DNA of 64,000 nt, from contig JAFGRO010000026.1 in NCBI GenBank assembly GCA_016935095.1, positions 18,248-82,247 on the forward strand, in the 5' to 3' direction. Origin of the DNA: Candidatus Woesearchaeota archaeon. GTDB taxonomy: Archaea > Nanobdellota > Nanobdellia > Woesearchaeales > GW2011-AR15. The notes under the pieces are model-generated. The model was not told the DNA's origin and ran no database searches. It saw nothing but the letters and a program-made list of their open reading frames with translations. Positions 2 through 32,846 of this stretch are shown piece by piece. Both the position numbers and the translations under genes were made by a program. Every line of letters starts with the position of its first letter. Positions within the stretch are counted from its first letter, which is position 1.

Positions 2-2923
2 GGCAGTTTTTCAAATCTCACTATCTGGGATTCAGCAGATGAAAACATGCCCTATGCAAATAAAACAACCTATTCCGGGAATATAACAACCCTATTTGCA
101 GATTATATCAATGCAAGCTCCGGTGAAAAAATCATCAGTAGCCAGACCTGTAAAATAAAGTTTGATCTTGATTATAAAAACATGAGCTTTAACCAGGACA
201 TAAATTATTACACCTATAACATTTCATTTAATGAATCAGGCAACCATACCTATACAATAAACTGCTATAAGGAAAACTTTGATAATCTGACACTTGTTGA
301 TGCAATTGCTGTTTCGGAAATTATTACTGATAATGATGGCGATGGCTATCCGCCTGGTACTGACTGCAATGACAATAACCCTGATATTAATCCGGGGATG
401 CAGGAAATCCTCTATAACGGGGCAGATGATGACTGCAACTCTGCAACACTGGATTATATACTTTTTGACATAACAGCAAATAAGCAGACTTATGCTCTTG
501 GGGAACTTGTTATATTGACCCTTTACTCTATTGATAACTCTGACACTTATGTAACAATTAACTCGCCTTCGAATGTTTCATATATCTATATCTTTATGAA
601 TGAAACCTATCCTTTGACACAGGAATTCATATACACGAATAATTCAGGCTTATATTCAGTTGAAGCAATAAACTACTACAAGAATTATACAAATTCAAAA
701 ATTATTGATTTTGATGTCCAGAATAACCTTCAATTGAATGTTCAGGCAAACGATACAACTATCTTCAAATCAGAATCAGTTAAATTTACCGCATCTGTAA
801 CAGGCGGAATACCTCCATATACTTATGAATGGAATTTTGATGACAGCACTACAAGCGGTGAACAGAATCCTGTGCATAAATTTACACAGCTGAAAGAGCA
901 CAATGTTATACTTAAGGTTACTGACTTCCAGTATAATCAAAAGATTCAGACTATAAAAATAAAAGTCATTCCTGAATATGTCCTTAAAATTAAAGTTGAG
1001 GACAATATAACCAGTGAAGAGATTGAGGATGCCAAAGTCAGGCTGGGTGATGATTATGAATATACAAACACTACAGGAGGAGTTGAATTCAGGGCAACCA
1101 ATACAACATATGACCTTAAAATAACAGCCTCCGGCTACAAAACTCACAGGGAAGACATTAAGCTCAACCAAAGCCACGAACTAATAATTAAACTTCAGCC
1201 GGATGAAGATGAGTTCCCGCCTTTGCTAAGTTTAACAGAGCCAATTAATAACTCAAATATCTCTTCTGAAAAAGTGGTATTCAGGTTTTATGTAATAGAT
1301 GATGATTCTGTGAATTGTACGCTTTACACTTCCCATGGAGATGGATGGTGGAGCTCTGAGAAGGAATTTACTAATATTAATTCAGATGATGACATAAGAT
1401 ATGAAAAATCAAACCTTAATAGTGGGGATTATTACTGGAGAATTGAATGCATTGATGAAGATAAAAATGAAGTGCAGAGCAATAACTATAAGTTTACAAT
1501 AATCCGGGAAGAATCAATTTTACAGAATGAACTGAATGAACAGGAAAACCAGGATGTAAATGAAACCTCTTCCTATGTCCAGGAAATTTATAACCTGCTT
1601 CCTGATTTTAACACATATTCTCCTGAGCAGAAGAAAATAGTTGAACTGCTGAATATAAATGAATTAATAAAAAGTAAAAAGTTTGAGCTGGACAAGGCAA
1701 ACAGTGATTTGTTTAATCTGCGATACAGGAATGATGTCATTAACATCATGGAAGAAAGGGACAAAATCCTGGATCGAATCAATGAAATAAAAAACACAAC
1801 ACCAAGGGCAATTAATGTATTGAAAAAAGCTGAATTTGTTAAATATGTTGATGACGAGGATGCAGCTTCTCTGTTAGAAGAGTACATTGGTTTAAAGCAC
1901 ATGGATTATTCCAACAGGGAAAAAAATAAGTTTATAGAATCAAATAAGCTCTTGCAGAAAAAGACAACAATAAACACAGGAGCATATAATGTAGAGATTG
2001 AATACATTACAGGGTGGAAAAAAGAGATTACCTTAATAACAAAGAAAGTTGACTATGATTCCTATGACAATATCAATTTTGTTGAATTTATTCCAAAAGA
2101 CATAGTTGAATCTTCTAATGAAGTTACTATTCTTAATAAAGAGGCAATCATCCTGAAAAACGACCCTGTGTTTGAGCTTGCTCTTGACAACATCAATGAT
2201 ATAACCTATTATTTCAATAAAAAGGTTTCACTTGATATTGTGCCCCAGATAAAATCCCTTGTAGTGTCAACAGACCTTGACAATGCAGAAAACGGCATGG
2301 GGTCTATTACAGGATTTGCATTATTTGATAAGATAGGTATGAGTTTTAAAAATAAAACAGTATTTATCATAGAAATCCTGGTCATAATAATATTAAGCGC
2401 AGTCTATATTAACTATCAATTCAGGTATTCTCAATCTGATAATGAAAAAAAAGGCGGTTCTGCAATGCCTGTTTCAGGACATGTTGCACAGCCAGTGCCT
2501 GTTACTCAGCCAGGACCTGCTGTTCAGCAGAAATATACCCAGCCAAAAAGACAAGTTCAGCAGAACTATGAATATGTCTCCTTATTAATCAATGAGATAA
2601 ATGAGCTAATCCATAAAAAGAATTTAGAAAGTGCAGCATTGAAATATTCTGAAATTAATTTATTGTTCAATAAGCTTTCAGACTATCATAAAAATATTCT
2701 TTTTAACAGGATTTTTGCCCTCGGAGAACAAATTAATATGAATTATACTTTAGAGTTAGTGGACAAATGCTATATTGCACTAGCAAATAATCCTGGTTCT
2801 TTTGAACTTGCATATAATGAACTGCAGGAAGAATATATTAAACTTTCACATGAGCAAAAGCAAAGGGTTTACCCTGAAATATGTAAACTGCTTTCAATAA
2901 TCAGCAGAAAAAATGAAGCATAA
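2..2923 (+). CDS. Surface/membrane protein, 5'-truncated by the window: MopE-like metal-binding motif, PKD domain, carboxypeptidase-regulatory-like domain, C-terminal TM and cytosolic helical tail
   Basis: Frame is open from base 2 (GSFSNLTIWDSADEN-MPYANK...). DNDGDGYPPGTDCNDNNPDINPG...YNGADDDCN; PKD-like PYTYEWNFDDSTTSGEQNPVHKF; TM TVFIIEILVIIILSAVYINY; helical tail after the TM. Confidence 0.85.
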   Translation, partial: GSFSNLTIWDSADENMPYANKTTYSGNITTLFADYINASSGEKIISSQTCKIKFDLDYKNMSFNQDINYYTYNISFNESGNHTYTINCYKENFDNLTLVDAIAVSEIITDNDGDGYPPGTDCNDNNPDINPGMQEILYNGADDDCNSATLDYILFDITANKQTYALGELVILTLYSIDNSDTYVTINSPSNVSYIYIFMNETYPLTQEFIYTNNSGLYSVEAINYYKNYTNSKIIDFDVQNNLQLNVQANDTTIFKSESVKFTASVTGGIPPYTYEWNFDDSTTSGEQNPVHKFTQLKEHNVILKVTDFQYNQKIQTIKIKVIPEYVLKIKVEDNITSEEIEDAKVRLGDDYEYTNTTGGVEFRATNTTYDLKITASGYKTHREDIKLNQSHELIIKLQPDEDEFPPLLSLTEPINNSNISSEKVVFRFYVIDDDSVNCTLYTSHGDGWWSSEKEFTNINSDDDIRYEKSNLNSGDYYWRIECIDEDKNEVQSNNYKFTIIREESILQNELNEQENQDVNETSSYVQEIYNLLPDFNTYSPEQKKIVELLNINELIKSKKFELDKANSDLFNLRYRNDVINIMEERDKILDRINEIKNTTPRAINVLKKAEFVKYVDDEDAASLLEEYIGLKHMDYSNREKNKFIESNKLLQKKTTINTGAYNVEIEYITGWKKEITLITKKVDYDSYDNINFVEFIPKDIVESSNEVTILNKEAIILKNDPVFELALDNINDITYYFNKKVSLDIVPQIKSLVVSTDLDNAENGMGSITGFALFDKIGMSFKNKTVFIIEILVIIILSAVYINYQFRYSQSDNEKKGGSAMPVSGHVAQPVPVTQPGPAVQQKYTQPKRQVQQNYEYVSLLINEINELIHKKNLESAALKYSEINLLFNKLSDYHKNILFNRIFALGEQINMNYTLELVDKCYIALANNPGSFELAYNELQEEYIKLSHEQKQRVYPEICKLLSIISRKNEA

Positions 2924-5900
2924 AAAAACAAGAAGAAAACATAGAATTGATTTAATATTGAATAAAATTCTATTAGTTTTAGTAGTAATCACAGCTGTCT
3001 TATCTATGCTGATGCTAAGAGAATTTATAGGATTTTTGTCATATCATGCAGCTGAAGGAGGCGTAATTACTGAGCTGAGAGTTGACCGTACACAGCCTCC
3101 TTGGGCATGGAACGGCATATATGGCCTGGTATTTGCCTTTTCAGGTTTGAATAATACATGGATAGTGGAAACTACAAATGCAGGTATGGATCCCCTTACT
3201 ATGATTGTTGACTGCCTTGAGCCTGAAATTGAGCATGAAGTCTATGCACTAAATGCCCCTCCTGCGCAGATAAACTGGGAAAATGTAACAGCAGCAGACC
3301 CGAGTCTTATTGATAATTTTACAGGTGTGGACCCTGGAAATGCAATGGCTGCAGTAAATACATTCATCTACAATATGAGTATAAGCCTTGGAAACACAAC
3401 TATTTCGGATATACCAATGGCATATACATATCAAAATGACGCATTTGGAACGGATTTCATGCATGGTCTGCTAACTGATGGGGAGCATATAATAATAGTG
3501 TCCAAGGTTACAGACGATTATCCGCAAGGATTTGACGGTAATAATTATAATTACCAGATGTTTGTTCCGGTACCTGCAAATTCTTCTGTTTTGTATTATC
3601 TTGTTACAGATCCTTTTGATGTATGCCCTGAAGGTGCAGAGGAAACATTCGGCAAAGGAACTGTCTATGGATGGGCATCAGACAATACTACTGGGCTTCC
3701 CCTTGAAAATGTCGATGTTTATATAGGAACAGAACACGCAGTCACTGATGCAGATGGCTATTATAATTTATCAGTTACAAGAGGAGATTATCTGGTTGTG
3801 GCACTGAAATACGGTTATAATAATTATATCAGCAATGTATCTGTGACAGAAAACAATGCTACACTGCATAATATTACAATGGAAATGTATGAAGAGCCGC
3901 AGGAGGGCACAGGCACAGGAGTGGGTACAGGAGTGGGCCCGGGAACAACAGACAAAACACGTACAGGCAAAGGTCCCGGCGTTGGTCCAGGCATAGGCCC
4001 CAGCATAGGTCCTTATATGGAAAGACCGGAAGAGCCTGGGATTGACCATTTTATAACCTTGGACAGGCTTTATAAAAGACTGAGAATAGGTAATTTCTTT
4101 GTAGAGAATATTGTCATCTATAGTTTCAGGACAGAAGCCGTAAAAGTCTATGTAAGCATTAAAGGCAACGCGTCAAAAGTAATTGAGATAGATAAGACTT
4201 CATTTACAATTGAGCCGAATTCTTATGAAAATGTGACTGTAACGGGATTTGGCCGTGAATTAGGAACTTATATTGGTTCTTTTGAAGTTTCAGGGGATCT
4301 TAATGATTCACTACCTATACAGATAATTGTGACTGATGAGGAAAAACTGCCTGTGGAAGCCCTTCTGATTCAGCTTGAATTATTAACCAAGAAGCCTTTT
4401 GCAGGTGACAGGTTTAAGTTCAGGCTTAATCTGCATAATATGCTTATTGAGGAACAGTATAATGTCTCTTTATACTATTCTGTGAGAGGCATTGAAGCAG
4501 ATACAGCCAATTATTCAATGGAAGCGGGCACAGATAATGTTGAATTGCTGACAGCACTTTCTTTGATAAAAGAATTTACAATCCCGAAAGAATGGCCGAA
4601 AGGTGAATACCTCCTTATTATTGATGCGGATTACCTTGACTTGTATTCACAGAGCTCAACTGTCTTTGAAATCTATGAGCCTATTTATATGTACAGGGTT
4701 TTTGGAAAAATAGAACTCTGGAAAATATTACTTGGTTTAATAATACTGTCTTTGATTATTTTTACAGTTATTATAATAAGAGCCAAAATTGAAGCCAAGA
4801 AGAGGTTCCATGCAAAAGTGGAGTATAATCTTCTTCCGAAAAAAGGTTCCCGTTCATTGTATGTAGGGAAGATTGCTGAAACTGAAAATGATACTTATTT
4901 TGATATGGATTCCTTAACAGTACACACGATTGTTGCAGGCTCAACCGGCGGCGGAAAAACTATTTCAGGCCAGGATATTGTTGAGGAATGCCTTATGAAA
5001 AATGTAGCAGTTGTAGTCTTTGATCCTACAGCACAATGGACAGGAATGCTGAGAAAATGCCAGGATGTGAAAATGATGTCTTTTTATCCGAGGTTTCATT
5101 TAACGAAAAAAAATGCACGTGCATTTAATGGAAATGTGCGCGCTATAAAAAATCCCAGGGAAAAAATTGACCTGATGAAATACTGGAAAGCCGGAGAAAT
5201 TAATATATTCACTTTAAGCACATTAGATCCTAAAGATATAGATGTTTTTGTTGCTAATACTGTCAGGGAAGTATTCCATTGCAATTTGCAGGAATATCGC
5301 GGACTTAGAATGCTCATGGTATATGATGAGGTCCACAGACTGTTGCCAAAGTTCGGCGGCTCTGGAGAAGGGTTTATCCAGATAGAGAGGGCATGTCGTG
5401 AATTCAGGAAATGGGGTATTGGCGTATTGCTGATTTCACAGGTCTTAGCAGATTTCGTCGGCCAGATTAAAGCTAATATCAATACAGAAGTCCAGATGAA
5501 AACCAGGGATGAAGGTGACCTTAAAAGGATTGAAACAAAATACGGTGCAAGCTATGTCCAGGAGCTTGTAAAAAGCCCGGTCGGTTCAGGGATGGTACAA
5601 AACTCAGCATGGAACCGCGGCAAGCCGTATTATATTACATTCAGACCAATCCTTCATAGTGTCAAAAGACTGACTGATGAAGAGCTTGCTCAGTATAATA
5701 AATATAATGAAATGGTTGATGACCTTACTTATCAGGTTGACCAGCTTGAAAAAGAAGGACAGGATGTGTTTGACCTGAGACTGGAACTGAAACTTTCTCT
5801 TGATAAAATTAAATCAGGGAATTTCAATATGGTTGATATTTATCTGGAAGGTCTAAAGCCAAGGCTTGAAAAAGTCTGGAAAGAGCTTGGCAAGACACCT

Positions 5901-6839
5901 AAGAAAAGAGAGGTTGAACTTATTTCCGAAGATGAGATTAAGGCTGATCTTGAAGCAGCCAAGAATGCCCGTGAAAAGTATGAAAAAGAAACTGGGGGAG
6001 GGGAAAAGAAAAAAGAAGAGAAAGGTCCTCTTGGATATAGTGATGATGTTCCTCCTAATAAATTACTCAAATTAGTGAATGGCATGCTTGTGATTAACAT
6101 GAAAAGCCTTTATGATGAGATTGCCGCAATGAAAGAAGCTGATTTTAAGCAACATGTAAATGAAGAAAAAAATGATTTTTCTGACTGGATAAGAAATGCA
6201 GTCGGCAATGCAAAATTAGCTGATGTTGCTGATAAGATTATTACAAAAGATGATTTCCTTGCATTTTTAGATGCCTGCGGAAAAAAGCAGGGAGAAAAAT
6301 TCAAGCCGACACAGCCCAGGGAGAATATCCCTAAAAAGGAAGGAGGAAAAGCGGGGGAACAGCAAAAAGAAGGGGAGAAAAAAGAAGAGCCTCCTAAACA
6401 GGACCAGAAATCGGCAGAAGGTGAACAGCAACCACAAAAACCGGAAGAAAATAAACAGGGAGAGCAGCAAAATAAAAATCCTCCTGAAAATAAAGAGGAG
6501 CCTAAACCTGATGAAACAAATAAACAGCCTGAAGCTCAAAAAGATAATGAAAAGACGCAACGACCAGCACAGAACACAACTCTCTCCCCTGATCAATACT
6601 TTAAATTATCAGACGGCAGGGTTATAAAAAGCCTTCAGGAATTGCATGATTCATTGGCAAATATGGATGATAATCTATTTAAAACTCATGTAACAGATCA
6701 GAAAAATGATTTTTCATCATGGATCAAATCTGTATTTCATGATCAGGAGCTTAGTGATAAGCTCGCAACTATAAAATCAAAAGAAGAGATAATGAAGATA
6801 TTAGATGAAAAACTGAAAACTGCAAAAGGAGTGAATTGA
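2913..6839 (+). CDS. Membrane-anchored HerA/VirB4-like ATPase fused to extracellular Ig-like/carboxypeptidase-regulatory domains and two C-terminal 'KNDF' (DUF5752-like) domains
   Basis: N-terminal TM; GxG-rich linker; second TM IELWKILLGLIILSLIIFTVIIIRA; Walker A AGSTGGGKT; Walker B LRMLMVYDE; GIGVLLISQ...NINTEVQMKTRD; HVNEEKNDFSDWI and HVTDQKNDFSSWI. Confidence 0.85.
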   Translation: MKHKKTRRKHRIDLILNKILLVLVVITAVLSMLMLREFIGFLSYHAAEGGVITELRVDRTQPPWAWNGIYGLVFAFSGLNNTWIVETTNAGMDPLTMIVDCLEPEIEHEVYALNAPPAQINWENVTAADPSLIDNFTGVDPGNAMAAVNTFIYNMSISLGNTTISDIPMAYTYQNDAFGTDFMHGLLTDGEHIIIVSKVTDDYPQGFDGNNYNYQMFVPVPANSSVLYYLVTDPFDVCPEGAEETFGKGTVYGWASDNTTGLPLENVDVYIGTEHAVTDADGYYNLSVTRGDYLVVALKYGYNNYISNVSVTENNATLHNITMEMYEEPQEGTGTGVGTGVGPGTTDKTRTGKGPGVGPGIGPSIGPYMERPEEPGIDHFITLDRLYKRLRIGNFFVENIVIYSFRTEAVKVYVSIKGNASKVIEIDKTSFTIEPNSYENVTVTGFGRELGTYIGSFEVSGDLNDSLPIQIIVTDEEKLPVEALLIQLELLTKKPFAGDRFKFRLNLHNMLIEEQYNVSLYYSVRGIEADTANYSMEAGTDNVELLTALSLIKEFTIPKEWPKGEYLLIIDADYLDLYSQSSTVFEIYEPIYMYRVFGKIELWKILLGLIILSLIIFTVIIIRAKIEAKKRFHAKVEYNLLPKKGSRSLYVGKIAETENDTYFDMDSLTVHTIVAGSTGGGKTISGQDIVEECLMKNVAVVVFDPTAQWTGMLRKCQDVKMMSFYPRFHLTKKNARAFNGNVRAIKNPREKIDLMKYWKAGEINIFTLSTLDPKDIDVFVANTVREVFHCNLQEYRGLRMLMVYDEVHRLLPKFGGSGEGFIQIERACREFRKWGIGVLLISQVLADFVGQIKANINTEVQMKTRDEGDLKRIETKYGASYVQELVKSPVGSGMVQNSAWNRGKPYYITFRPILHSVKRLTDEELAQYNKYNEMVDDLTYQVDQLEKEGQDVFDLRLELKLSLDKIKSGNFNMVDIYLEGLKPRLEKVWKELGKTPKKREVELISEDEIKADLEAAKNAREKYEKETGGGEKKKEEKGPLGYSDDVPPNKLLKLVNGMLVINMKSLYDEIAAMKEADFKQHVNEEKNDFSDWIRNAVGNAKLADVADKIITKDDFLAFLDACGKKQGEKFKPTQPRENIPKKEGGKAGEQQKEGEKKEEPPKQDQKSAEGEQQPQKPEENKQGEQQNKNPPENKEEPKPDETNKQPEAQKDNEKTQRPAQNTTLSPDQYFKLSDGRVIKSLQELHDSLANMDDNLFKTHVTDQKNDFSSWIKSVFHDQELSDKLATIKSKEEIMKILDEKLKTAKGVN

Positions 6840-7058
6840 ATGTTTAAAGAAGTAATAAAGCTATTTGAAAGAAGAAAAGATAATCTCATAAATTTACTCG
6901 AGACTAACTCAGCAGAGATAGATGCCGGAAAACAGCACCAGCTTTACGGTGCAATTTTAGAAATTGATTTTATGATTAAAACACTGCAGCACCATAATGA
7001 TAGGCTGGCAAAAGAAAATCTGACTATGAGAAAAGACAAACTCCTGAAATTTGATTAA
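6840..7058 (+). CDS. Small helical protein of unknown function
   Basis: ATG flush with upstream stop (TGAATG); overlaps or abuts the next gene; charged helical composition. Confidence 0.6.
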   Translation: MFKEVIKLFERRKDNLINLLETNSAEIDAGKQHQLYGAILEIDFMIKTLQHHNDRLAKENLTMRKDKLLKFD

Positions 7059-7059
7059 A

Positions 7060-7986
7060 ATGAAATTGATTAACTTATTTAAAAAACCACTGAAGGGTAA
7101 TATTAAATCCGAAATTAAAGATAATGCCCTGAAAAATAAGGAAACTGTTAAAACTAAAACTACAGAAAATATTAACAATAATATTAATACTAAAATAGAA
7201 GAATATAAAAAATTCACCTTGTCACCTGCAGAGTATTTCTATATGCATGACGGCCAGATCATAAAAAATCCTGTTGAGCTGCCTTCAATACTGGAAATTC
7301 TTGATGATGAAACTTTTAAATATCATGTAACAGATCAGAAAAATGATTTCTCTAACTGGATTAAAGGCGTGTTCAGGGATAAAGAACTTTCTGATAAGCT
7401 TGCAAATGTAAAAACAAAACAGGAGACGATTTCTGTAATTAATAATTATTTAAATAAAAACACACAGGATAACCTTCCGAATAATAATCAAAATAATACT
7501 CAAATTAAAATCCAGAATAAAATTAAGGAAGACAATATCCAAAAACCAGAACAAGCTGAGGCTCCTGTTAAAAAAGAACCTCCTAAAACAATGGACACAA
7601 AAGATTTTAATAATAAGGTTAAACAGGTCCAGGAAAGGATTAAACAAGTTCAGTTCAATGGAGAGGATTATCATCAGATTAACGATTCTTCGGAATTAGT
7701 AAAAAAATTCAATGAGGATTATCAGCAATTAAAAAATAAAGTCTCTGAAATCAGGAAAAAGGGTTATGATACAAAGATATGTGAATTGCATTTAATGAGA
7801 ATTCCTCCTAAAATAAAAATTTTTGAAATAACAAAAACAGATAAAGAGGCTGACAGGATAAAAAAATTATTCCAGGAGTTATGCCAGGAAACAAATTCGG
7901 TGATCAATTCAAATCCAATCCCTGAAAATGAAACTGCAAATTCAGAAAAAACAACAAAACAAGAGGATACAAATAATTCAAATTAA
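7060..7986 (+). CDS. Soluble protein with a 'KNDF' (DUF5752-like) domain
   Basis: YFYMHDGQIIKNP...YHVTDQKNDFSNWIKGVFRDKELSDKLANVKTKQE matches the C-terminal domain of 2913..6839; ATG at 7060 preferred over TTG at 7051. Confidence 0.8.
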   Translation: MKLINLFKKPLKGNIKSEIKDNALKNKETVKTKTTENINNNINTKIEEYKKFTLSPAEYFYMHDGQIIKNPVELPSILEILDDETFKYHVTDQKNDFSNWIKGVFRDKELSDKLANVKTKQETISVINNYLNKNTQDNLPNNNQNNTQIKIQNKIKEDNIQKPEQAEAPVKKEPPKTMDTKDFNNKVKQVQERIKQVQFNGEDYHQINDSSELVKKFNEDYQQLKNKVSEIRKKGYDTKICELHLMRIPPKIKIFEITKTDKEADRIKKLFQELCQETNSVINSNPIPENETANSEKTTKQEDTNNSN

Positions 7987-8096: not shown

Positions 8097-9419
8097 ATGT
8101 GGCCATTTAAAGAGAAATTTAAACGTATTGAAGATGAGGAACAAAAAGATGTAGTTGAAAATGCTGCTCAGGAAGAAACCAGTCAGGATGCTCCAGCGGG
8201 GGTTTCAACTTCTAAATTATCAGCGGATCTTACAAAATTAAAAGCACAGTTTGACCAGTTTGTTGAGCTCAGGAATGTTTTTAACGAGAGATTTACAAGG
8301 CTGAATGAACAGGTTGGTGAACTCAGGGGCATGATAATGGATTCAAACAGGGCAATGCAGGATATAGAAGTTAAAACAGTCAAAGCAGTTGACCTTGTAG
8401 GTGCTGTACAGCCTGATAAACTTATGGTTGAGGTCAGGAAACAGGATGCAAAGGTTGAGGCCCTCAAGGCAAATCTGGAAAGTAATGAGGCAATGATGAA
8501 ATCTATCCTTGAGCAATTAAAGGAGATGAGACAGAATATTAATAAGTTCAGGGGAATAGAACAGATTGTAAAGCTTAGTGAAGATGTAAAAAAAGAACTG
8601 ATGGATGTAAAAAAAATGGGTGCCACAGTTGAAAGGCATTCTGATAAGGTCGAGGGCATATTTATTGAATCCCAGAAAAAATTCCAGGAGTTTGAGAAAT
8701 TGTCTGATAAATTTGTAGATATAGATAAACGTCTTAGCACGGTTACTCAGCAAAGTGACCAGACAAAAGTCAAGATTCCGACACTGGCAGCAAAAAAAGA
8801 AGTTGAGAATCTTATTTCAAAATTCAATGATTTTGAAAAACACGTAGGCAATGTAATTGACTTATTAACAAAGCGGGCAAATGAGCTGCCGAAAGATGTT
8901 AATGACAGGTTCAAAAAACTTGAAAAAAGCATTAATGATGCATTTAATAAGCAGCTTAAAAAAGCTGAAAAAACAAATAAAATATTGAGCATACTAGAAC
9001 AAAAGGCACCAAAAATAGCAGCAGAGTTAAAAATAGGGGAGGTTGTTGAAAAGCAGCAGCCACAGCAAACCCAGGAGCAACAAAAAGAAGGAGAAAAAAC
9101 AGCTGAACAGCCGAAAGAAGGACAAGGACAGGAAAAAAAACAAGAACAACAACCTCAACAGGCACAGCCTGTAATCACATCAGGCGAATCTGAGATAAAA
9201 GAGATAAAAACCGAACAAAAACCAAAAGATGCTGCCCAGGAAGGAGAAAAATCAGGAGAAGCTGGTGAGGGAGCTGGCGAAGAAACAAAAGAAGGAGAAG
9301 CCTCAAAAGAAGACGGCGAGAAAAAACCAGGCCTGTTCGGAAAATTTTTCGGAAAAAAGAAAGAAACAGGAGAAGAGCAAAAGCCAGAAGAAAATAAACA
9401 AGGAGAGGGACAAAAATAG
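8097..9419 (+). CDS. Coiled-coil protein with E/K/Q/P-rich C-terminal low-complexity tail
   Basis: Long helical heptad-like region; tail ...KKPGLFGKFFGKKKETGEEQKPEENKQGEGQK; leader AAAAAAGAGG at 8081-8090. Confidence 0.8.
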   Translation: MWPFKEKFKRIEDEEQKDVVENAAQEETSQDAPAGVSTSKLSADLTKLKAQFDQFVELRNVFNERFTRLNEQVGELRGMIMDSNRAMQDIEVKTVKAVDLVGAVQPDKLMVEVRKQDAKVEALKANLESNEAMMKSILEQLKEMRQNINKFRGIEQIVKLSEDVKKELMDVKKMGATVERHSDKVEGIFIESQKKFQEFEKLSDKFVDIDKRLSTVTQQSDQTKVKIPTLAAKKEVENLISKFNDFEKHVGNVIDLLTKRANELPKDVNDRFKKLEKSINDAFNKQLKKAEKTNKILSILEQKAPKIAAELKIGEVVEKQQPQQTQEQQKEGEKTAEQPKEGQGQEKKQEQQPQQAQPVITSGESEIKEIKTEQKPKDAAQEGEKSGEAGEGAGEETKEGEASKEDGEKKPGLFGKFFGKKKETGEEQKPEENKQGEGQK

Positions 9420-9523: not shown

Positions 9524-10519
9524 ATGAAAACCATAAACAGATATTTTATTGTAATCTGCATTTTAATTATTGTATTGACTGGCTGCAGTGAAAAAACACA
9601 AGAGCAAAAAGTTTATAGAGTAGGTGTCCTATCTGGATTGAATTTTTTTGCAGTCATAGGAGACAGCTTTAAGGAAGAGATGGCTGAGTTGGGCTATGTA
9701 GAAGGTGAAAATATTATTTATGATTTCCAGAAAACAAATTTTGAACCAGAAAAAGAGAAGCAAATACTAGAAAAATTTGTAGAAGATGATGTTGACCTGA
9801 TATTTGTTTTTCCCACAGAGGTAGCATTGGCTGCTAAAGAAGCCGCCAAGGGGACAGATATTTCCGTGCTTTTTGCCTCTGCCTTTGTAGAAGGAAATGA
9901 CCTTATTGATAGCATAAGCCAACCAGGCGGGCATATTACTGGGGTTCGCTATCCAGGTACTGATGTAGCTGTTAAGCGTCTTGAAGTATTACATGAAATA
10001 ATGCCAAATGCCAAAAGAGTTTGGCTACCATACCAAAAAGAATATCCAGCTGTCCCCTCTGAACTGGAGCTTGTAAGGCCAGCTGCTGAATCTTTAGGAA
10101 TAACCCTTATAGAGTTTCCTGTTACTGATTTTGCACAACTACAGGAAGAGCTACAAAACCGTGAGGATTTAGACAATTTTGACTTTGATGCTGTGTTCTA
10201 TATACCAGAATCTCTTTCCACTACCAAATCTGTTTTTGAATTAATTGCTAATTTCACAAGAAAGAGTAAGATACCTATTATGGGAACAATAATTCAGACA
10301 GAGGACTATGGAACAGTATTTGGTGTCACTACTAATAATCCTGATTTTGGTGAACTAGCTGCACCTATTGCTGACAAAATCTTAAGGGGAATTCCTGCCG
10401 GCACAATTCCTGTTGTTTCACCTGAGTCCAAGCTTATAATAAATTATAAAGTAGCACAAGAACTTGGAATTGAAATTCCAGAGGGATTGCTAGTCAGGGC
10501 TGATGATGTAATTCGCTGA
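9524..10519 (+). CDS. ABC transporter substrate-binding-type lipoprotein (ABC_sub_bind family)
   Basis: Lipobox LTGC; YRVGVLSGLNFF...ELGYVEGENIIYDFQ...DDVDLIFVFPTEVALAAKEA...GGHITGVRYPG. Confidence 0.88.
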   Translation: MKTINRYFIVICILIIVLTGCSEKTQEQKVYRVGVLSGLNFFAVIGDSFKEEMAELGYVEGENIIYDFQKTNFEPEKEKQILEKFVEDDVDLIFVFPTEVALAAKEAAKGTDISVLFASAFVEGNDLIDSISQPGGHITGVRYPGTDVAVKRLEVLHEIMPNAKRVWLPYQKEYPAVPSELELVRPAAESLGITLIEFPVTDFAQLQEELQNREDLDNFDFDAVFYIPESLSTTKSVFELIANFTRKSKIPIMGTIIQTEDYGTVFGVTTNNPDFGELAAPIADKILRGIPAGTIPVVSPESKLIINYKVAQELGIEIPEGLLVRADDVIR

Positions 10520-10533
10520 TTATTAAAAAAGAG

Positions 10534-11562
10534 GTGATTAGAATTAATCTAAGTAAACAAATTAAATCAAAGCAGATAATTCTTTTTACAACATTATTGA
10601 TTGTATTTTGTATACTTTTAAGTGGCTGTTATGAAAAAGCAGAGGAAAAGATAGTATATAAGGTAGGCATAATATCTGGCTTAAATGCTTTTATCACGTT
10701 AGCAGACGGATTTAAGGAAGGAATGACCGAGCTGGGATATATAGAGGGTGAAAATATTATTTATGATTTTCATAAATTAAACTGTGATCCAGAAGGAGAA
10801 AAACAAGTAATTAAAAAGTTTGTAGAAGATGATGTTGATTTGATTTTTGCATTTCCAACTGAGGCAGCGATAGTAGCAAAAGAAACCACATCTGGAACTG
10901 GTATTCCAGTGGTTTTTGCAGTGGCAGGCATAGAAAGTAGTAATCTAATAGAGAGCATAGTTAAACCCGGAGTGCATATAACTGGTGTCCGCTTTCCGGG
11001 ACCCGATTTAACAGTTAAGCGTTTTGAGTTTTTGCTTGAGATTGTACCCAATATTACAAGGCTTTATATACCTTATGATCCGACTTATCCTAATGCATTC
11101 CCAGCACTTGAAGCTTTAATACCGGTTGCATCATCTTCTGGAGTGACTTTGGTGGAAGAGCCAGTTACAAGTCTGGAAGAAGTTCAGGCCGCTTTGCAGG
11201 CAAGATCTGAATTGGATTATATTGGAATTGATGCTATTCAAATCCTTCCTGAGACTTTTACTCAATCACCAGAAGTTTGGTCATTAATAAGAAAATTCTC
11301 AGAAGACAATAATCTTCCGTTGGTTGGCAGTTCAGGTCCTTCAGTAGAAGACGGAGCTATTTTTAGTTATGCTGCTATTCCTTTTGAAATGGGAAAACTC
11401 GCTGCTCCGTTGGCTGACCAAATATTTAAAGGCACACCTGCAGGAGAAATTATGGTTGTAACACCTCCTTCATATTTAAGGATTAATTACAAAAAAGCAC
11501 AAGAGCTTAATCTGACAGTACCTGAAAGCTTATTAAATCTGGCACAGGAGGTAATACACTAA
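10534..11562 (+). CDS. ABC transporter substrate-binding-type lipoprotein, paralogue 2
   Basis: GTG start after AAAAAAGAGG; lipobox LLSGC; colinear with 9524..10519. Confidence 0.88.
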   Translation: MIRINLSKQIKSKQIILFTTLLIVFCILLSGCYEKAEEKIVYKVGIISGLNAFITLADGFKEGMTELGYIEGENIIYDFHKLNCDPEGEKQVIKKFVEDDVDLIFAFPTEAAIVAKETTSGTGIPVVFAVAGIESSNLIESIVKPGVHITGVRFPGPDLTVKRFEFLLEIVPNITRLYIPYDPTYPNAFPALEALIPVASSSGVTLVEEPVTSLEEVQAALQARSELDYIGIDAIQILPETFTQSPEVWSLIRKFSEDNNLPLVGSSGPSVEDGAIFSYAAIPFEMGKLAAPLADQIFKGTPAGEIMVVTPPSYLRINYKKAQELNLTVPESLLNLAQEVIH

Positions 11563-11598
11563 TTTTAAAATTTTAAAAATGAAAAGAGGTAATGAAAA

Positions 11599-12588
11599 AT
11601 GAAAACAATAACTAAATATTTTGTTTTAATTTGCTTTTTAATAGCCTCATTGAGTGGCTGTGCTGAAAAGCCACAAGAAAAGATTTACCGGGTCGGTGTT
11701 CTTGTTAGTGTTAATGAACTTATAAGTATATTTGATGGCTTCAAAGAGAAAATGACGGAATTGGGTTATATAGAAGGGGAGAATATAGTCTACGAATTAT
11801 ACATAGCACCTAACCCTGTGGGGAATGAGCAAATCATTCAAAAATACGTGGACGAAAAGGTTGATTTGATATTCTCGTTCGCAACCGAAGCAGCCATAGA
11901 GGCTAAGGCAGTCGCAGAAGGAACAGGAGTCCCGGTTGTCTTTACATGTACCTTCATAGAAGGGACTGGTCTGGTAAATAGTGTCAGCAGTCCTGGTGGT
12001 GATATTACTGGTGTGCGTTATCCCACAACTGAAAGCGCGACCGGACGCTTGGAGTATTTGCACGAGATAGCACCAAATGCAAAGCGAATCTTTGTACCTT
12101 ATCTTAATGGTTATCCAACGACTTCTCCCCAGATTGAAGTTTTGCGGACTTTAGCGTCAGACCTGAACCTGAATTTAATAGAGGGGCCCTTTGCCACCCC
12201 ACAAGAGGTCAAGGCTTATCTTGATGAGCGCGCTGCCTCCTCTGATATAGGAATGGATGCAATTTTAATGATGGCTGAACCTTTCTCTGTAATACCCGAA
12301 GTCTTTAATGAAGTGTACAAGTTTGCTGATGAGCATAACTTACCTGTAAGTAGCTTCATGGTTTTTAAAGAAGCCTACGGGCCCATAATCGGGTTTCATC
12401 CTACCAATACCAACATGGGAAGTATGGCTGCAATTCAAGCCGATAAAGTCCTCAAAGGCATACCTGCCGGAACTCTTCCTGTCTTTACATCTGACAATGA
12501 TCTGAACATAAATTATAAACTTATTCAGAAAATGGGACTGAACGTGAGCGAGGGCCTGCTGGCGAGAGCCTATGAGATTGTAAGATAA
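11599..12588 (+). CDS. ABC transporter substrate-binding-type lipoprotein, paralogue 3
   Basis: Lipobox LSGC; YRVGVLVSVNELI...ELGYIEGENIVYEL...VDLIFSFATEAAIEAKA. Confidence 0.88.
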   Translation: MKTITKYFVLICFLIASLSGCAEKPQEKIYRVGVLVSVNELISIFDGFKEKMTELGYIEGENIVYELYIAPNPVGNEQIIQKYVDEKVDLIFSFATEAAIEAKAVAEGTGVPVVFTCTFIEGTGLVNSVSSPGGDITGVRYPTTESATGRLEYLHEIAPNAKRIFVPYLNGYPTTSPQIEVLRTLASDLNLNLIEGPFATPQEVKAYLDERAASSDIGMDAILMMAEPFSVIPEVFNEVYKFADEHNLPVSSFMVFKEAYGPIIGFHPTNTNMGSMAAIQADKVLKGIPAGTLPVFTSDNDLNINYKLIQKMGLNVSEGLLARAYEIVR

Positions 12589-12606: not shown

Positions 12607-14511
12607 ATGCATGAGAAAAGTGAAGTAAAAAAAACAGAGAAATTCAAAAGTCTTACATTTACTTTAGCAGTTGCTTTTTTGGCTTTGAGTGCAGTAGTGC
12701 TTTTTATTTCTGGTGCTTTAAATATATATTTTAGTATGCAAACCCAGCAAAGAGTGATTGACAGCCAGCAAAGAATGATTGCTCATGATGCTGCAGATTC
12801 TGTCAATAGTTTTATTCTTGGAAAATTCAATGAGCTGAAAAACGGGGCAAGGTTATCTAATATTGCAGTTGCCAATCAAGAAGAGCAGAAAATACTTCTG
12901 GAAAGGTTAATTGGCTTTGATCCTGCATTTCGCCAAGTAGCACTTTTAAATACACAGGGAGAAGAATTAATAAAAGTTTCCCGTCTGTCAAGTTTTGCTA
13001 CTGGTAAAGTAACAGATCTTATTGAAGATCCCTTGTTTGCTGAGTCAATTAAACAGAATGATTATATCAGTTCCATATATATTGATGAAATAACCAGTGA
13101 ACCTCTGGTTGTAATATCAATTCCGCTTAATGATATCTTTGGTGATTTGAAGGGAATCTTAATGGCTGAGGTTAATTTAAAATTTATGTGGGATTTAGTG
13201 GGCAGCATAAAAGTTGGGGATAAGGGTGTGGCGTATGTAGTTGATAATACTGGAAAATTAATAGCTTTTGAAGATGTCAGCCGAGTTTTAAAGAGAGAAA
13301 ATCAGGTACATCTAGAAGAGATTAGAAAATTTGTGGAAAGTAGTTCTCACATTCAAATGGCTAATGCTGAAATAACAAAAGGAATATATGGTAATTATGT
13401 TGTAACAACTCATGAGCATCTTGGCAGCCCAGACTGGGTTGTTGTAGTTGAAATGCCGGTTATGGAAGCATATGAAAACGTAATTACACAGATTAAGCTA
13501 TCACTGTTATTTATGATATTGAGTTTTATTTTTGCTATCATTGTAGGTATTTTTCTCTCAAGAAGGATCACAAAACCAATAATAAAATTAAGAGATACTG
13601 CTGTTGAAATAGGCAAAGGCAAATTGGACACACAGATAGATATCAAAACAAGGAACGAAATTGAAGATCTCGCATCTTCATTCAACCAGATGACAAAGAA
13701 CTTAAAAAATTCAAGGAAAAAGATTGAAGATTACAGCAGAAACCTTGAACAAAAAGTAAAAGAAAGAACAAAAAAACTTGCAGAAGCAAACGCGAAATTA
13801 AAAGAGCTGGATAAAGAAAAAGACGAGTTTATTTCAGTAGCGGCGCATGAATTAAAGACGCCTCTTACTTCAATAAAGGGCTTTGCCCAGCTAATGGACA
13901 CAGACACAGTAATGAAAAACAGGAAAAAACTGAAGCATTATCTTGAATTAGTCAATCAGAACACGATAAGGTTATATAATCTCATCCTGGATATAGTGGA
14001 TTCTTCAAGAATGAGTCTGGGTAAGCTGAAGCTTGAGTGTAAGGAAGTTGATGTAAATGAGATATTTAAAGAAGTCAGGGAGACACTGACAATAGTAATA
14101 AAAGAGAAAGGCATAACCCCTGTGTTTTTTATAGATAAGAACATGCCGAAGATAAAAGCTGATCCGCAAAGGCTTCTGCAGGTCATAAGGAACCTGATAG
14201 TCAATGCGACGCATTTTACACATGAAAAAGGTATAATAACATTTAAAGTATACAGGAAAGGGAAATTTGTCCAGTTTGAAGTAAAAGACACAGGGGAAGG
14301 AATCCCGAAAGACAAGCAGAAAAATATTTTTTCAAGGTTTTACCAGGCAGATGCATCGTTGACAAGGAAAGTAAAAGGCTCAGGCCTCGGCCTGTCAATA
14401 TGCAAGGGATTTGTTGAGCTGATGAAAGGCAGGATATGGTTTGAATCTGAAGAAAAGAAAGGCACGACATTTTATTTTACAGTGCCGCTCGCAAAAAATA
14501 AAAAAATATAA
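12607..14511 (+). CDS. Sensor histidine kinase: Cache-type extracytoplasmic sensor, HAMP, HisKA, HATPase_c
   Basis: Two TMs flanking a sensor domain; RRITKPIIKLRDTAVEIGKGKLD; H-box SVAAHELKTPLTSIKG; N-box NLIVNATHF; G-boxes DTGEGIP and GSGLGLSICKG. Confidence 0.92.
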   Translation: MHEKSEVKKTEKFKSLTFTLAVAFLALSAVVLFISGALNIYFSMQTQQRVIDSQQRMIAHDAADSVNSFILGKFNELKNGARLSNIAVANQEEQKILLERLIGFDPAFRQVALLNTQGEELIKVSRLSSFATGKVTDLIEDPLFAESIKQNDYISSIYIDEITSEPLVVISIPLNDIFGDLKGILMAEVNLKFMWDLVGSIKVGDKGVAYVVDNTGKLIAFEDVSRVLKRENQVHLEEIRKFVESSSHIQMANAEITKGIYGNYVVTTHEHLGSPDWVVVVEMPVMEAYENVITQIKLSLLFMILSFIFAIIVGIFLSRRITKPIIKLRDTAVEIGKGKLDTQIDIKTRNEIEDLASSFNQMTKNLKNSRKKIEDYSRNLEQKVKERTKKLAEANAKLKELDKEKDEFISVAAHELKTPLTSIKGFAQLMDTDTVMKNRKKLKHYLELVNQNTIRLYNLILDIVDSSRMSLGKLKLECKEVDVNEIFKEVRETLTIVIKEKGITPVFFIDKNMPKIKADPQRLLQVIRNLIVNATHFTHEKGIITFKVYRKGKFVQFEVKDTGEGIPKDKQKNIFSRFYQADASLTRKVKGSGLGLSICKGFVELMKGRIWFESEEKKGTTFYFTVPLAKNKKI

Positions 14512-15504: not shown

Positions 15505-16692
15505 ATGCAAAACTCAATAAGTCAAATTGAAATCATGAAAAAAGAACAGCCTGAAGAAGATGACATAACTCTTCCTGAGGATAAGATTTTTGGCGAGGAG
15601 CAGGATTTGGATGAAATTAATCCGGTTGTTCAGAATCCAATTGTTCAGGACCAGGTTGTCCAAGAGCCTGTTGTCCAGAAGCCGGCTGAGCCTGAAACAA
15701 CAAAGCATGAAGTGGCTGCAGGAGAGATAACTGAATCATCTCCGCTTGCACAAAAAACAACTGGAAAAGAATCAATTGCAGAAATGCAAAAAAGCCTGCA
15801 CTTGTCAAAAAACAGAGCTGTTGAACAAGAGCCATTTAAGCCCGGATTAATGGAAAAACCGACTGTGAAACCGGACATTGGACAAATGAATGATATTGGA
15901 AAACCAGCTGCAGCTTCAACAGCCAGTTCTTCAAATGTGTCTGTTATGGAATTCATAAAAACAGGAGTTACCGGGTTTGATGAGCTGATTGTTTCAGGAA
16001 TACCTAAAGGGTCCCAGGTTTTGATTTCAGGAGGCCCAGGCACAGCAAAGACAACATTCTGCCTGCAAACTTTGGCTTACGGCGCAAAAAACAATGAAAA
16101 GAGCCTTTACCTGTCTTTTGAAGAAGAAAAACACAGGTTGCTTCATTACATGAGAACATATGGATGGAATCCTGATGAACTAATAAAAAAAGGTTATCTG
16201 AGAATAGAGAAGCTTGACCCGTTTAAGATTTCAAGGTCAGTAGAGACATTATTGGCTCAGGCTCGAGGGGAATTATTGATTGAAACCAATCAGGTGAAGG
16301 ACCTGATACCTGAAGACTTTAAGCCTGATAGGATAGTACTTGATTCACTGTCAGCAGTTGCAGCGGGATTTTACGGTAAGATTGAGGGCTACAGGGCATA
16401 TATCAGCCAGATATTTGATACCTTCAGGAAAATTGGAGCAACATCTTTTTTAATTTCAGAAATCGAGCACTCAACTGTAAAATACAGCCAGTCAGGCGTT
16501 GAGGAATTTTTAGCTGATGCAGTATTTGTTTTTTATAACCTGCCCCAGGGCAATGAAAGAATACACGCTACTGAAATAATCAAAGTCAGGGGCACCCAGC
16601 ATAAAAAGAGAATCGTGCCCTTTAAGATTTATTCAAATAAAGGCATTAATGTATATCCAATGGAGGAATTGTTTGTTGATAAGAAAGAATAA
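15505..16692 (+). CDS. KaiC/RadA-like RecA-superfamily ATPase with long N-terminal V/Q/P-rich extension
   Basis: TGVTGFDELIVSGIPKGSQVLISGGPGTAKTTFCLQTLAYGA; RIVLDSLSAVAAGF; RGTQHKKRIVPFKI. Confidence 0.9.
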   Translation: MQNSISQIEIMKKEQPEEDDITLPEDKIFGEEQDLDEINPVVQNPIVQDQVVQEPVVQKPAEPETTKHEVAAGEITESSPLAQKTTGKESIAEMQKSLHLSKNRAVEQEPFKPGLMEKPTVKPDIGQMNDIGKPAAASTASSSNVSVMEFIKTGVTGFDELIVSGIPKGSQVLISGGPGTAKTTFCLQTLAYGAKNNEKSLYLSFEEEKHRLLHYMRTYGWNPDELIKKGYLRIEKLDPFKISRSVETLLAQARGELLIETNQVKDLIPEDFKPDRIVLDSLSAVAAGFYGKIEGYRAYISQIFDTFRKIGATSFLISEIEHSTVKYSQSGVEEFLADAVFVFYNLPQGNERIHATEIIKVRGTQHKKRIVPFKIYSNKGINVYPMEELFVDKKE

Positions 16693-16718
16693 TTAACAGC
16701 TTAAAAAAGAGGTGAACC

Positions 16719-19700
16719 TTGTTAAAAGCTAATCTATTAAAAAAGTCTGGATTTATTATTGGTTTGTTTATTGTATTTGTAATAGTTTTAAATTTACCAG
16801 TAGTTTATGCTCCTGCAGGCAATGTATGCAACTGGACTTCACCGTGCCAGTGCGGCTCAAACTGCTATTTTGGAAATACTTACTTAAATGAGTATAATAC
16901 AATTAATGATTGCCAGGACGGCTATAATGATAATTATGAATGGGTTCATGACATTACTGTGACTAATCTGAATGACTCTGTTTTTAATGGAGGTGATGTA
17001 ATTGAGATTGATGCATATTTCAGGTTTGATTTAGATACAGAAGAGATTTCATTTGTTTACCATAACGGCAGTGCATGGAAACATCTGGCTGATATGACAG
17101 ATTCTGGCTATGAGGGGTATAAACACAAATACCTTAATCTAACCCTGGATAATGTGAAAGCTTATCATACTGTCAGGGCGATAGTCTGCTGGTCAGGAGC
17201 AGCAGGTATGACCTGCGGTTATGATTATGATATAAAATACTCAGATACAGATGACCTGAGCTTCTATGTACTTGAGGAAGGAGCAACTCCGGATACAACA
17301 AACCCTGCTGTTAAAGACCTTTCTCCGGATGGCACTACTTATACATATAGCTCTGACCTTGTGGTAAATATTTCAGCTAATGTAACAGATGATGTCAATG
17401 TATCCTCAGTAAGGGCAAATATTACATGGACAGGAAATTCACAGACAGTTGAGTTGACTGAACTCTCAGGGAATATTTACCAGGGCAATATTTCTGGTTT
17501 CATTAATCTTGGGAGGTATGATTTCACAATAATTGCAAATGATACTCTTAATAATATCAATAACACTGAGACAGGATATTTCTATGTAAATATGACAGGG
17601 AATATTACTGTTTCCTCTCCGGAAGAAGACGGGCTTTATAAATACGGCGATGCATATCTCTTTTATGAGCTTCCTGAAAATTATACTCTTGCACAGACCT
17701 GGTATTCTTTAAATGGAGACTCTCCTGTTTATGTAAATTCCAATTTTAAGATATCTGAAGAGAATACTGACCAGCAGCTTGCCCAATATGAACTGGATTA
17801 TGCTTACGGCAATTTGAGCCAGTCTTTTTATACTATTGCAGAGATGGATATTGAAAAAATTTCCGTTAAATTAAAAAAGAACAGTTCAGGCACATCAAAT
17901 TCAATGGTTGAAATAAGGTCAGATAATAATGGCCTGCCATCAGATTCAATACTTGCTTACGGCAATATCTCAGATGCAGATGTTTCTGGCTCGGATTTTT
18001 CATGGGTAAATATAACTTTGAACCAGACTCTTAATTTAAATGCTGATATGGGTTACTGGCTGTTTTTAACGCCAAACGGTTCTTCCGCTGATTTTTTCAT
18101 GTGGGAATCAAATGATGATAATTCCTATACATTAGGAAATTACAGCAATAATGCTTCAAAAGACTTGTTGTTTATAGTGTATGACAGGTATAAATATAAT
18201 ATAAGCTTAAGCAGCATTGATAAAAATGACCATACAATACAGGTATTTGCCAATTCCACTACTCTGCTGGATATTGAATCTCCTTTGATTTCATTTGCTG
18301 TTGACCATGAAGAGCCTGAAATAGTTTCTGTTGACTATTCTCCTGATGATTCTGAATCACTCGACCCTGAGGTATTAATCAATGTATCAGCGGAAATAAT
18401 AGAAGACCTGGAAACTGAAATTGTATCATTATATTACAAATTAAGTTCCCAGTCTATATGGGAAAATACCACAATGATAAATTTTTCAGACATGTATTAT
18501 GGAAATTTTACTCCTGATTCAGAAGGTACATGGGAGTTTTATGTCTTTGCAATAGACACTTCAGAAAACAAATTTGAAGGAGAGTTATTTGAACCGGAAA
18601 TTTATTATGAAAAAAGCTGGAATATCACTCCGGAGCAATTTAACAGTACTGGCAGCCTGATTAATTCTAATGTAAGCATTGGGAATCTTACAATAAACAA
18701 CAGTGCTGATTTTGCATATGAGTTTAATATATCAACAATCCAGAGCAGCCCTGTAATATACTATAATGATTCTGTATCAAAACAAATAATCCTGCAGCCT
18801 CATAGCACTGCTGTAATTGAGGTGAGAGGCTCAACAAAAAGCATACCTTCTGAAGATGAGATTAATATAGTTGTAGATGCACTGAACTCTTCAGCAAGTC
18901 CCTCACTATTATATAATAATTTTACCTTTATCTCTGCTTTGAGCGGGTCATATCTTCATGTTGATATTGTATCTTATGATCCTTCTGTTACACAGGGAGA
19001 CAATATATTTTCATTAAAAGCCAGAATCACAAATATCGGAAATGAGACTGCTTATAATGTAACTGCATTGTGGACACTTCCTTCCGGATGGAGCAGCAGG
19101 GATGAATTGAATAACACTTATGATAATCTCACTTCAGGCGGCTATGAGGCGATTGAGTTTGAAATATCAGCAGATGTTAATGAGAGCGCTCCAACTGGAG
19201 AAAAAACACTTTTAATTGAGGTGAACTGCTCTGCAGGGAGATATGATTCGGATTCAAGGACTGTTACTGTAAATTCAGCATCACAGGAACAGCAGCAGCA
19301 ACAGGACGATTCCTCCGGAGGGACTTCCACTACCACATTAAGATCAGGAGGAGGCACTTTTATAATTAAGGATCAGGAAATCTATTTTAATATTACGGAT
19401 ATAGAAATAGGGAGAGGCAGGACAAAAAATATTTCATTCTTTATATTGAATAATGCTTCAGGAACAATTATAAATAATATTTTAATAAAACTGGAAGGGC
19501 TTTACCAGAACTATTACCGGATAATTCCTGATTATATAGAAAAATTAAATTACAGCTCTGAACAAATCATAGATTTAAGAATAGAAGTCCCGACATATAT
19601 GCAGATAGGCAAGCATAAATTAAAATTAATTGCCTCAACTGCAGAAAAAGAATTTTCAAAGGAATTTAATTTAATAGTTATTGATTCAAAATTGATTATA

Positions 19701-22500: not shown

Positions 22501-22550
22501 GATAAAAAATAAATACTTCAATTGATTTAATGTTAAAAAAGAGGCGGAAA

Positions 22551-24566: not shown

Positions 24567-24570
24567 AAAT

Positions 24571-25956
24571 ATGAAAAAAGACAGGAAGACTGTTATATAC
24601 CTGAGTTTGTTGTTGCTAATCTTTTTAGCAGGATGTGTTGCGCAAAAGACAAGCATAGATCTGGTTGCGAATGAGAAAAAAGAGTCATTACAAGAAGTCT
24701 CAAAATCAGCTGTTGGATGTAGCTCCAAAAGCGATTTTAAAGAGGCAATTGCCGAAGCAGTTAATAAAGCCAAAGGTAAACTTGGTACAAACCAACCTAA
24801 TTTTGCTTATGTGGTCTATGTAAGTGAGGACAATCATGAGGAAATCATAGATGAAGTCAGAAACCAGATTGGCCCCGGTGTCAAAATATTCGGCCTTACA
24901 TCTAATATGATTATTACAAATGACTGTATTATTGAAGCTGAAGATTTTGCAGTAGGTGTTTTGTTAGTGGCCTCCGAGGATATAAATATAGGCATAGGCA
25001 CTATTGATCTTGAGACAGCTTTAACACCTGAAGATGCTGGAAAGACAGCAATAACTGAGGCTATCAAAGATGCAGGAAAAGATGCAAGCATAAAACCAAA
25101 AATGATTCTATACATGGGAACCACAAAAAGGGGAGAAGAGAACCAGATAATGGATGGGATTGCAGATATTGTTGGCAAAGATGTCCCTGTTGTTGGAGGA
25201 AATTCAAAAGATTTTAGTGCAAAATTTCATAATAACTGGAGACAGTTTACCCATGAAGAAAACTTTAACAACGGGTTGATTGTTGCAGCAATATATACAG
25301 AAAATAAAGTTGGGTGGGGATTTGAGTCAACATTTAAAATTACTGATAAGAAAGGTGTTGTGACAAAATCAGACGGGTTCCGTATAGTTGAAATTGACAA
25401 CAGGCCTGCTCTGGATGTTTATGATGAATGGGTTGACGGCGAATTCTATGAAAAACTAAACGCAGGCGAGTTTAATAGTGATGAGGAAGAGGTTGATTTT
25501 ACTTTGGTTAAGGGATTTACTTTGCTGAACCCTATTGCTAAAATAGTAAGAGGCGATGCCGGCCAGATAGGACATTTTGCTACCTCGCCAATCCCTGATG
25601 CAAAGGATATTGAGGACAAGAGTATCTCAGTATATGCCCAGGTAGTTACAGGAGATGAAATTTCACTGTACAGGGGAACATGGGAAATAGCAATGAACAG
25701 GGTTGAAACAATTCCCAGGGATGCATTGCTGCGGTCAGGATTAAAAAAAGGAGAAGGCACTTTTGCAGTAATGGCATTTTGCAATGGTCTTAAAACAATT
25801 CTCCCAAAGGAAGAATTAGCAAAAGTTTCAATTATAACTGATGATATTTTAGGTGTGCCTTTTATCGGTGCTATAACAGCAGGCGAGCAGGGACCAATTC
25901 CCGGAATAAGAAATGTGAATGCAAATCTTATTGAGTCAGTTGTACTGGTAGGTTAA
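24571..25956 (+). CDS. FIST-domain (FIST_N/FIST_C) lipoprotein
   Basis: Lipobox LIFLAGC; FAYVVYVSEDNHEEIIDEVRNQIGPGVKIFGLTSN; NRPALDVYDEWV; RGTWEIAMNRVETIPRDALLRSGLKKGEGTFAVMAFCNG. Confidence 0.82.
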   Translation: MKKDRKTVIYLSLLLLIFLAGCVAQKTSIDLVANEKKESLQEVSKSAVGCSSKSDFKEAIAEAVNKAKGKLGTNQPNFAYVVYVSEDNHEEIIDEVRNQIGPGVKIFGLTSNMIITNDCIIEAEDFAVGVLLVASEDINIGIGTIDLETALTPEDAGKTAITEAIKDAGKDASIKPKMILYMGTTKRGEENQIMDGIADIVGKDVPVVGGNSKDFSAKFHNNWRQFTHEENFNNGLIVAAIYTENKVGWGFESTFKITDKKGVVTKSDGFRIVEIDNRPALDVYDEWVDGEFYEKLNAGEFNSDEEEVDFTLVKGFTLLNPIAKIVRGDAGQIGHFATSPIPDAKDIEDKSISVYAQVVTGDEISLYRGTWEIAMNRVETIPRDALLRSGLKKGEGTFAVMAFCNGLKTILPKEELAKVSIITDDILGVPFIGAITAGEQGPIPGIRNVNANLIESVVLVG

Positions 25957-25962
25957 GTTGAA

Positions 25963-32833: not shown

Positions 32834-32846
32834 ATTTCTCCCCTGT

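Follow-up and report, generated by a model that had tools for sequence, protein, structure and literature searches.

Gene B (positions 2913-6839) of the Woesearchaeota DNA analysed here, a stretch of 64 000 nucleotides referred to as the window, encodes a 1308 amino acid protein which, as judged by sequence comparison, is a short, split relative of the giant SPEARE proteins of nanohaloarchaea with an ATPase of the same family. We read it, with a probability of roughly 0.5, as the motor that, in the membrane of Woesearchaeota and their relatives, serves an apparatus for host contact or surface adhesion. This is the best explanation supported by the profile and fold matches of the ATPase, the invariance of its motifs, the operon counts, the giant genes that follow gene D, the shared WQ domain and the co-occurrence of ATPase and WQ domain. 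Features lie on the forward strand unless marked (-), and domains are given as residues followed by window positions.

Gene B has an ATG start and a single uninterrupted frame, with the order from N- to C-terminus being TM segment, ectodomain, TM segment, HerA-type ATPase and two DUF5752-like domains, here termed KNDF domains, an anatomy that is well supported. A hydropathy scan placed the two TM segments at residues 14-32 (2952-3008; N-in) and 604-622 (4722-4778), the second also being present in the structure model. Between them lie 16 N-glycosylation sequons versus a mean of 4.7 in shuffled sequences, with 2 versus a shuffled mean of 3.3 after TM2, and basic residues occupy the expected cytosolic side of both segments (MKHKKTRRKHR before TM1, RAKIEAKKRFHAK after TM2). 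Hydropathy, sequons and basic flanks together show a predicted topology with both termini inside the cell and the ectodomain outside, where this head is probably decorated with sugars. Pfam matches over their cut-offs comprised the DUF87/HerA central domain (residues 650-742, 37.1 bits, cut-off 23.2), CarboxypepD_reg, a transthyretin-like beta-sandwich (residues 253-324; 3669-3884), and DUF5752 twice in the C-terminus, where KNDF domains 1 (residues 1047-1120; 6051-6272) and 2 (residues 1225-1298; 6585-6806) are found. The sequence-only reading had seen a glycosylatable exposed ectodomain, a TM segment, a P-loop ATPase and two C-terminal domains on one chain, all of which the single frame, TM scan, sequon counts and Pfam bear out. 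Its description of the ectodomain as Ig-like holds only in part: the ectodomain consists of an N-terminal WQ domain (residues 47-242; 3051-3638), the CarboxypepD/transthyretin-like domain and a conserved region preceding TM2 (residues 379-614; 4047-4754), on which no Pfam Ig model scored; the latter region also occurs before the TM segment of some giant ATPase proteins. Laminin-G and other recognised adhesion domains were not found in B, the Pfam matches in its ectodomain being of the CarboxypepD_reg type only.

The ATPase domain (residues 641-1008; 4833-5936) carries a Walker A motif, AGSTGGGKT (residues 675-683; 4935-4961), in which G and K are invariant in 27 of 27 aligned relatives, giants included, and a Walker B motif, MVYDE (residues 802-806; 5316-5330), with D805 invariant and E806 kept in at least 90% of the same 27. 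The gene coordinates and the motifs given in the sequence-only reading, LLISQ (residues 839-843) among them, proved correct. A further motif, REFRKWG (residues 829-835; 5397-5417), is invariant in all 27 relatives and aligns with REGRKFG of HerA. When a profile of these relatives was compared with solved structures, HerA (4d2i) came first (E 3e-13), FtsK and DotL were far weaker and VirB4 was not matched. Likewise, when residues 600-1142 were modelled with AlphaFold (pLDDT 90), the best fold match was HerA 4d2i (E 4.6e-11), with the pCW3 coupling protein TcpA 26th and FtsK 31st. Neither the curated HerA equivalog profile (25.5 bits, cut-off 800) nor that of CedD (24.6 bits, cut-off 600) reached its threshold on B, and Pfam TrwB_AAD_bind also fell below its cut-off (14.6 bits, cut-off 20.5), although it exceeded it in several of the relatives of B examined by Pfam. 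Pfam listed the VirB4 N-terminal domain PF03135 neither for B nor for any of four partner ATPases, and the HAS-barrel was not seen in B, the ATPase starting some 20 residues past the TM segment and the structure model showing none. By sequence profile and predicted fold HerA is therefore the nearest relative of the ATPase, whereas the published assignment is to VirB4/TraG; of the earlier label 'HerA/VirB4-like', the first half stands and the second is not supported. A VirB4/TraG assignment was rejected, Pfam, NCBIfam, the PDB profile search and the fold search all being unsupportive.

B lies in an operon whose order, A-B-C-D, is kept in relatives. Gene A (positions 1-2923, its start cut by the window; 1003 amino acids in the contig) overlaps B by 11 bases and encodes a surface protein that has a signal peptide, ectodomains including PKD, a single TM segment near the C-terminus and then a conserved cytosolic helical tail. 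Gene C (7051-7986, start codon uncertain) encodes a small cytosolic KNDF protein, and gene D (8097-9419) a cytosolic coiled coil lacking cysteine and TM segments. A homologue of A is found upstream of B at 36 of 46 testable loci, whilst a C-type gene follows B at 32 of 38 and gene D at 31 of 38; D homologues also adjoin giant ATPase genes. The KNDF domain is common to B and to a 1477 amino acid surface protein (16719-21152) with a Sec signal, a TM segment at residues 1133-1151 and a cytosolic C-terminal KNDF domain at residues 1397-1470. It is likewise C-terminal in membrane surface proteins at two further loci of this genome (L210, L214), and KNDF genes adjoin genes for small WQ proteins (L211, L210; genome G064), so that these sequence contexts give it the appearance of a cytosolic adaptor common to several proteins.

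Elsewhere in the window, a KaiC-type ATPase gene lies directly upstream of the KNDF-bearing surface protein gene (the pair spanning 15505-21152), and in genome G024 (L041) the B and D genes have as neighbours KaiC and genes homologous to the one for this surface protein. Three tandem ABC_sub_bind lipoprotein-like genes (9524-12588), with no transporter gene recognised alongside, are perhaps sensory binding proteins; downstream of them are a dCache histidine kinase (12607-14511) and then a response regulator. A KaiC-type gene (32126-32869, (-)), a small KaiC/DUF7504-like gene (33364-33894, (-)) and a small gene of similar appearance (28095-28637, (-)) lie near signalling genes encoding PAS, FIST and histidine kinase proteins (22530-27648).

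The WQ domain, with its conserved W-x-G-x-Y-G pattern, is not confined to B. Standalone secreted WQ proteins of about 240-270 amino acids number six in this genome, and G064 has six within one stretch. A distant version ends five giants: giant secreted protein 1 of the window, a pair in G081 and single ones in G064 and G032. The match is weak (24-26 bits), always at the extreme C-terminus, consistent in place and reciprocal: a profile built from the giant C-termini recovers small WQ proteins, down to E 9e-9, and otherwise matches only five proteins of 615-632 amino acids. These five end in the giant-type C-terminal domain and are encoded at Pacearchaeota-type loci (L120, L123, L124, L114 and L132), some of them just upstream of a B-family ATPase gene. 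The predicted structure spanning the WQ and CarboxypepD-like halves of the B ectodomain (pLDDT 92) gave top PDB fold matches due mainly to the CarboxypepD-like half, and no solved relative of the WQ half was among the top 50. In the nanohaloarchaeal phylum the WQ domain was not found, only the CarboxypepD part of the B ectodomain matching there, and since it is absent from this SPEARE lineage it is not needed for the core activity of the family. A WQ-type domain of docking character seems, from sequence profiles, to be common to a separate giant adhesin and to motor protein B, and from its distribution alone we infer a pilin-like or docking role.

Giant secreted protein 1 (5808 amino acids; 35155-52581), which has 288 sequons, a signal peptide and no C-terminal TM segment, carries the WQ-like domain at residues 5617-5795 (52003-52539) and is a probable partner of B. 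A possible second giant, secreted protein 2 (54764-64000), is cut by the contig end before its C-terminus and has at least 3079 amino acids. In the window these giants lie some 26 kb from D and do not adjoin it; homologues of giant 1 follow D in G081, G064 and G032. Counting proteins of at least 1200 amino acids, or cut frames of at least 700, a giant-size gene starts no more than 2.5 kb past D at 15 of 29 loci, and on the upstream side at none of 28.

Among 100 related genomes searched, full-length or near full-length B homologues occur in about 20 Woesearchaeota-type genomes at 44-67% identity. The fusion is thus conserved across many genera, along with the order A-B-C-D, and since such homologues occur in genomes obtained independently, an assembly artefact is excluded. 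In a wider sample of the phylum the B-type ATPase is patchy (43 of 238 genomes). As raw counts, uncorrected for shared ancestry and taking in the WQ domain of B itself, 32 of these 238 genomes had both ATPase and WQ domain, 11 the ATPase only, 25 the WQ domain only and 170 neither. At least four of the 25 'WQ only' genomes reflect B genes cut at contig ends, and G006, a genome of the same family assembled as a single contig, had neither. Five ATPase-less B genes (G073, G115, G283, G184 and G014) were considered as a natural split of B, and this was rejected since each of them breaks off at a contig end, where the ATPase begins or close by. At one locus (L099, G051:C36) B is present as two adjacent frames of 587 amino acids (ectodomain) and 729 amino acids (ATPase), which is either natural fission or a sequence error. 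In the ATPase tree, drawn open, the WQ and KNDF forms fall in one group (76 rows, SH-aLRT 87), with the giants outside.

The layout of ectodomain, TM segment and ATPase is already described for SPEARE proteins. Nanohaloarchaeal giants have an ectodomain, TM segment and ATPase with an adjacent second ATPase (PMC10266531), and sequences like the intracellular part of SPEARE were noted in Woesearchaeota by Hamm 2019 (PMC6642349). The idea that B belongs to an undescribed system therefore holds only in part, and the B locus is a short, split variant. Hamm 2019 read the ATPase part as 'type III restriction' (PMC6642349), a label explained by the ResIII matches that Pfam gives in giant-type ATPases, and PF03135 has been reported in SVXNc_0299 (Front Microbiol 2023, PMC10266531). 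Genomes of the nanohaloarchaeal phylum carry the B-type ATPase in 24 of 34 cases (best E 7e-185), the kinship with SPEARE being shown via these genomes and not by direct comparison with the named SPEARE sequences; the ATPase sits mostly within frames of about 2,000-12,000 amino acids, with D adjoining at L134-L137. In other genomes frames reaching some 16,000 amino acids terminate in the same ATPase, often beside a second ATPase gene of about 700 amino acids and D. At four loci (L033, L034, L036 and L040; genomes G033, G059 and G031) the giant's ATPase and its counterpart in the neighbouring protein of about 700 amino acids are mutual nearest relatives within the genome, which suggests recent duplication or gene conversion, and the paired ATPases may form mixed rings; several loci related to these break at contig ends within the ATPase.

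Like B, SPEARE proteins (NAR1_1133; SVXNc_0300; BNXNv_0298) have a signal or TM segment, an ectodomain, a TM segment and a cytosolic HerA/VirB4-superfamily ATPase, the ATPase domains being homologous by way of the giant frames of the phylum, and at loci of either type the coiled-coil gene D adjoins the ATPase gene. Unlike B, they reach about 3,000-9,400 amino acids with the giant ectodomain on the same chain, whereas B has the WQ ectodomain and C-terminal KNDF domains, with giant adhesins in separate genes, and no adjacent second homologous ATPase gene, the genome having a single B-type ATPase gene where some relatives have pairs. HerA of Sulfolobus solfataricus and anti-phage HerA share the ATPase class; B differs in being membrane-anchored, in its large ectodomain and in having neither a HAS-barrel nor a NurA/Mre11 partner alongside. 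With the type IV secretion ATPases VirB4, TraG and TrwB it shares the broader superfamily and similarity to TrwB, DotL and TcpA at the level of Walker A, but it falls below all family cut-offs, no VirB4 N-terminal domain is listed and no other type IV secretion genes were recognised nearby. CedB/CedD are also archaeal membrane-associated HerA-class ATPases, the CedD match being weak, whereas B has no CedA-like channel gene and has a large ectodomain and giant adhesins. No prior description of the split form, the C and D operon, the WQ link or the HerA assignment was found in the literature searched, most subscription papers and all preprints lying outside it.

In the mechanism that we propose, B would form a hexameric ring on the inner membrane face through its ATPase, with six B ectodomains and A arranged as a collar on the outer side. 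Sec would export the giant adhesins and the small WQ proteins, which would then dock on this collar via like-with-like WQ contacts, and ATP hydrolysis would drive assembly, retraction or substrate passage at the collar site, with C, D and the KNDF domains as the cytosolic coupling part. Adhesin and motor form one chain in SPEARE, and in Woesearchaeota the two would be joined non-covalently. The machine coupling cytosolic ATP hydrolysis to the cell surface that the sequence-only reading envisaged is upheld as regards the joining of ATPase to ectodomain and the adhesin neighbourhood and co-occurrence; what the motor moves is inferred. More tentatively, the locus may represent a system of surface assembly in DPANN archaea, whose HerA-type membrane motor would put together or run an adhesion organelle made of WQ parts, with small secreted WQ proteins as subunits, giants ending in WQ domains as tip or arm adhesins and the WQ domain of B as the base, SPEARE being the fused form.

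Membrane-anchored members of the superfamily such as T4CP and EccC move proteins, which favours a type IV secretion-like injector in which the ATPase pumps symbiont proteins into the host via a channel around the ectodomain. Effector injection of this kind has been proposed for the nanohaloarchaeal SPEARE proteins (PMC10266531), and paired ATPase genes occur in many lineages. We consider it doubtful here, given that the ATPase is nearer to HerA than to VirB4 or TraG, that PF03135 is missing from the Pfam listings of B and the partner ATPases, that nothing resembling VirB6, VirB8, VirB9 or VirB10 was recognised among the operon genes and that a candidate effector was not found.

Somewhat less probable again is import of DNA, in which a Ced-like pump of the HerA type would bring DNA, whether free or of the host, into the symbiont, with the ectodomain as a DNA or host receptor. 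HerA and CedD, to which the ATPase is most closely related, translocate DNA, and DPANN archaea often lack nucleotide synthesis, but the scores of 24-26 bits against HerA and CedD lie far below the cut-offs of 600-800, the operon has no CedA-like polytopic channel protein (A and B having two TM segments each), and the neighbourhood is one of surface adhesins, not nucleases. A motor for envelope remodelling or cell division, holding the chromosome to the surface in FtsK-like fashion and having no role with other cells, would agree with the HerA/FtsK superfamily, the membrane anchor and the coiled-coil partner; the patchy distribution, including absence from the single-contig genome of the same family, and the tie to variable giant surface proteins make it improbable. 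Despite its DUF87 core, an accidentally fused housekeeping HerA repair helicase is scarcely credible and was rejected, the genome having its own separate HerA-type genes, one adjoining Mre11, and B showing a fusion kept across many genera, no HAS-barrel and only the short spacer between TM segment and ATPase.

The locus bears on the question of how DPANN archaea gain hold of other cells and exploit them: it gives the Woesearchaeota a defined four-gene module with an ATPase, linked to SPEARE of cultivated nanohaloarchaea, and with the class of the motor corrected from VirB4-like to HerA-like. With motor and adhesin encoded separately, each can be expressed on its own and, should the WQ contacts prove real, small soluble domains would allow binding to be assayed.
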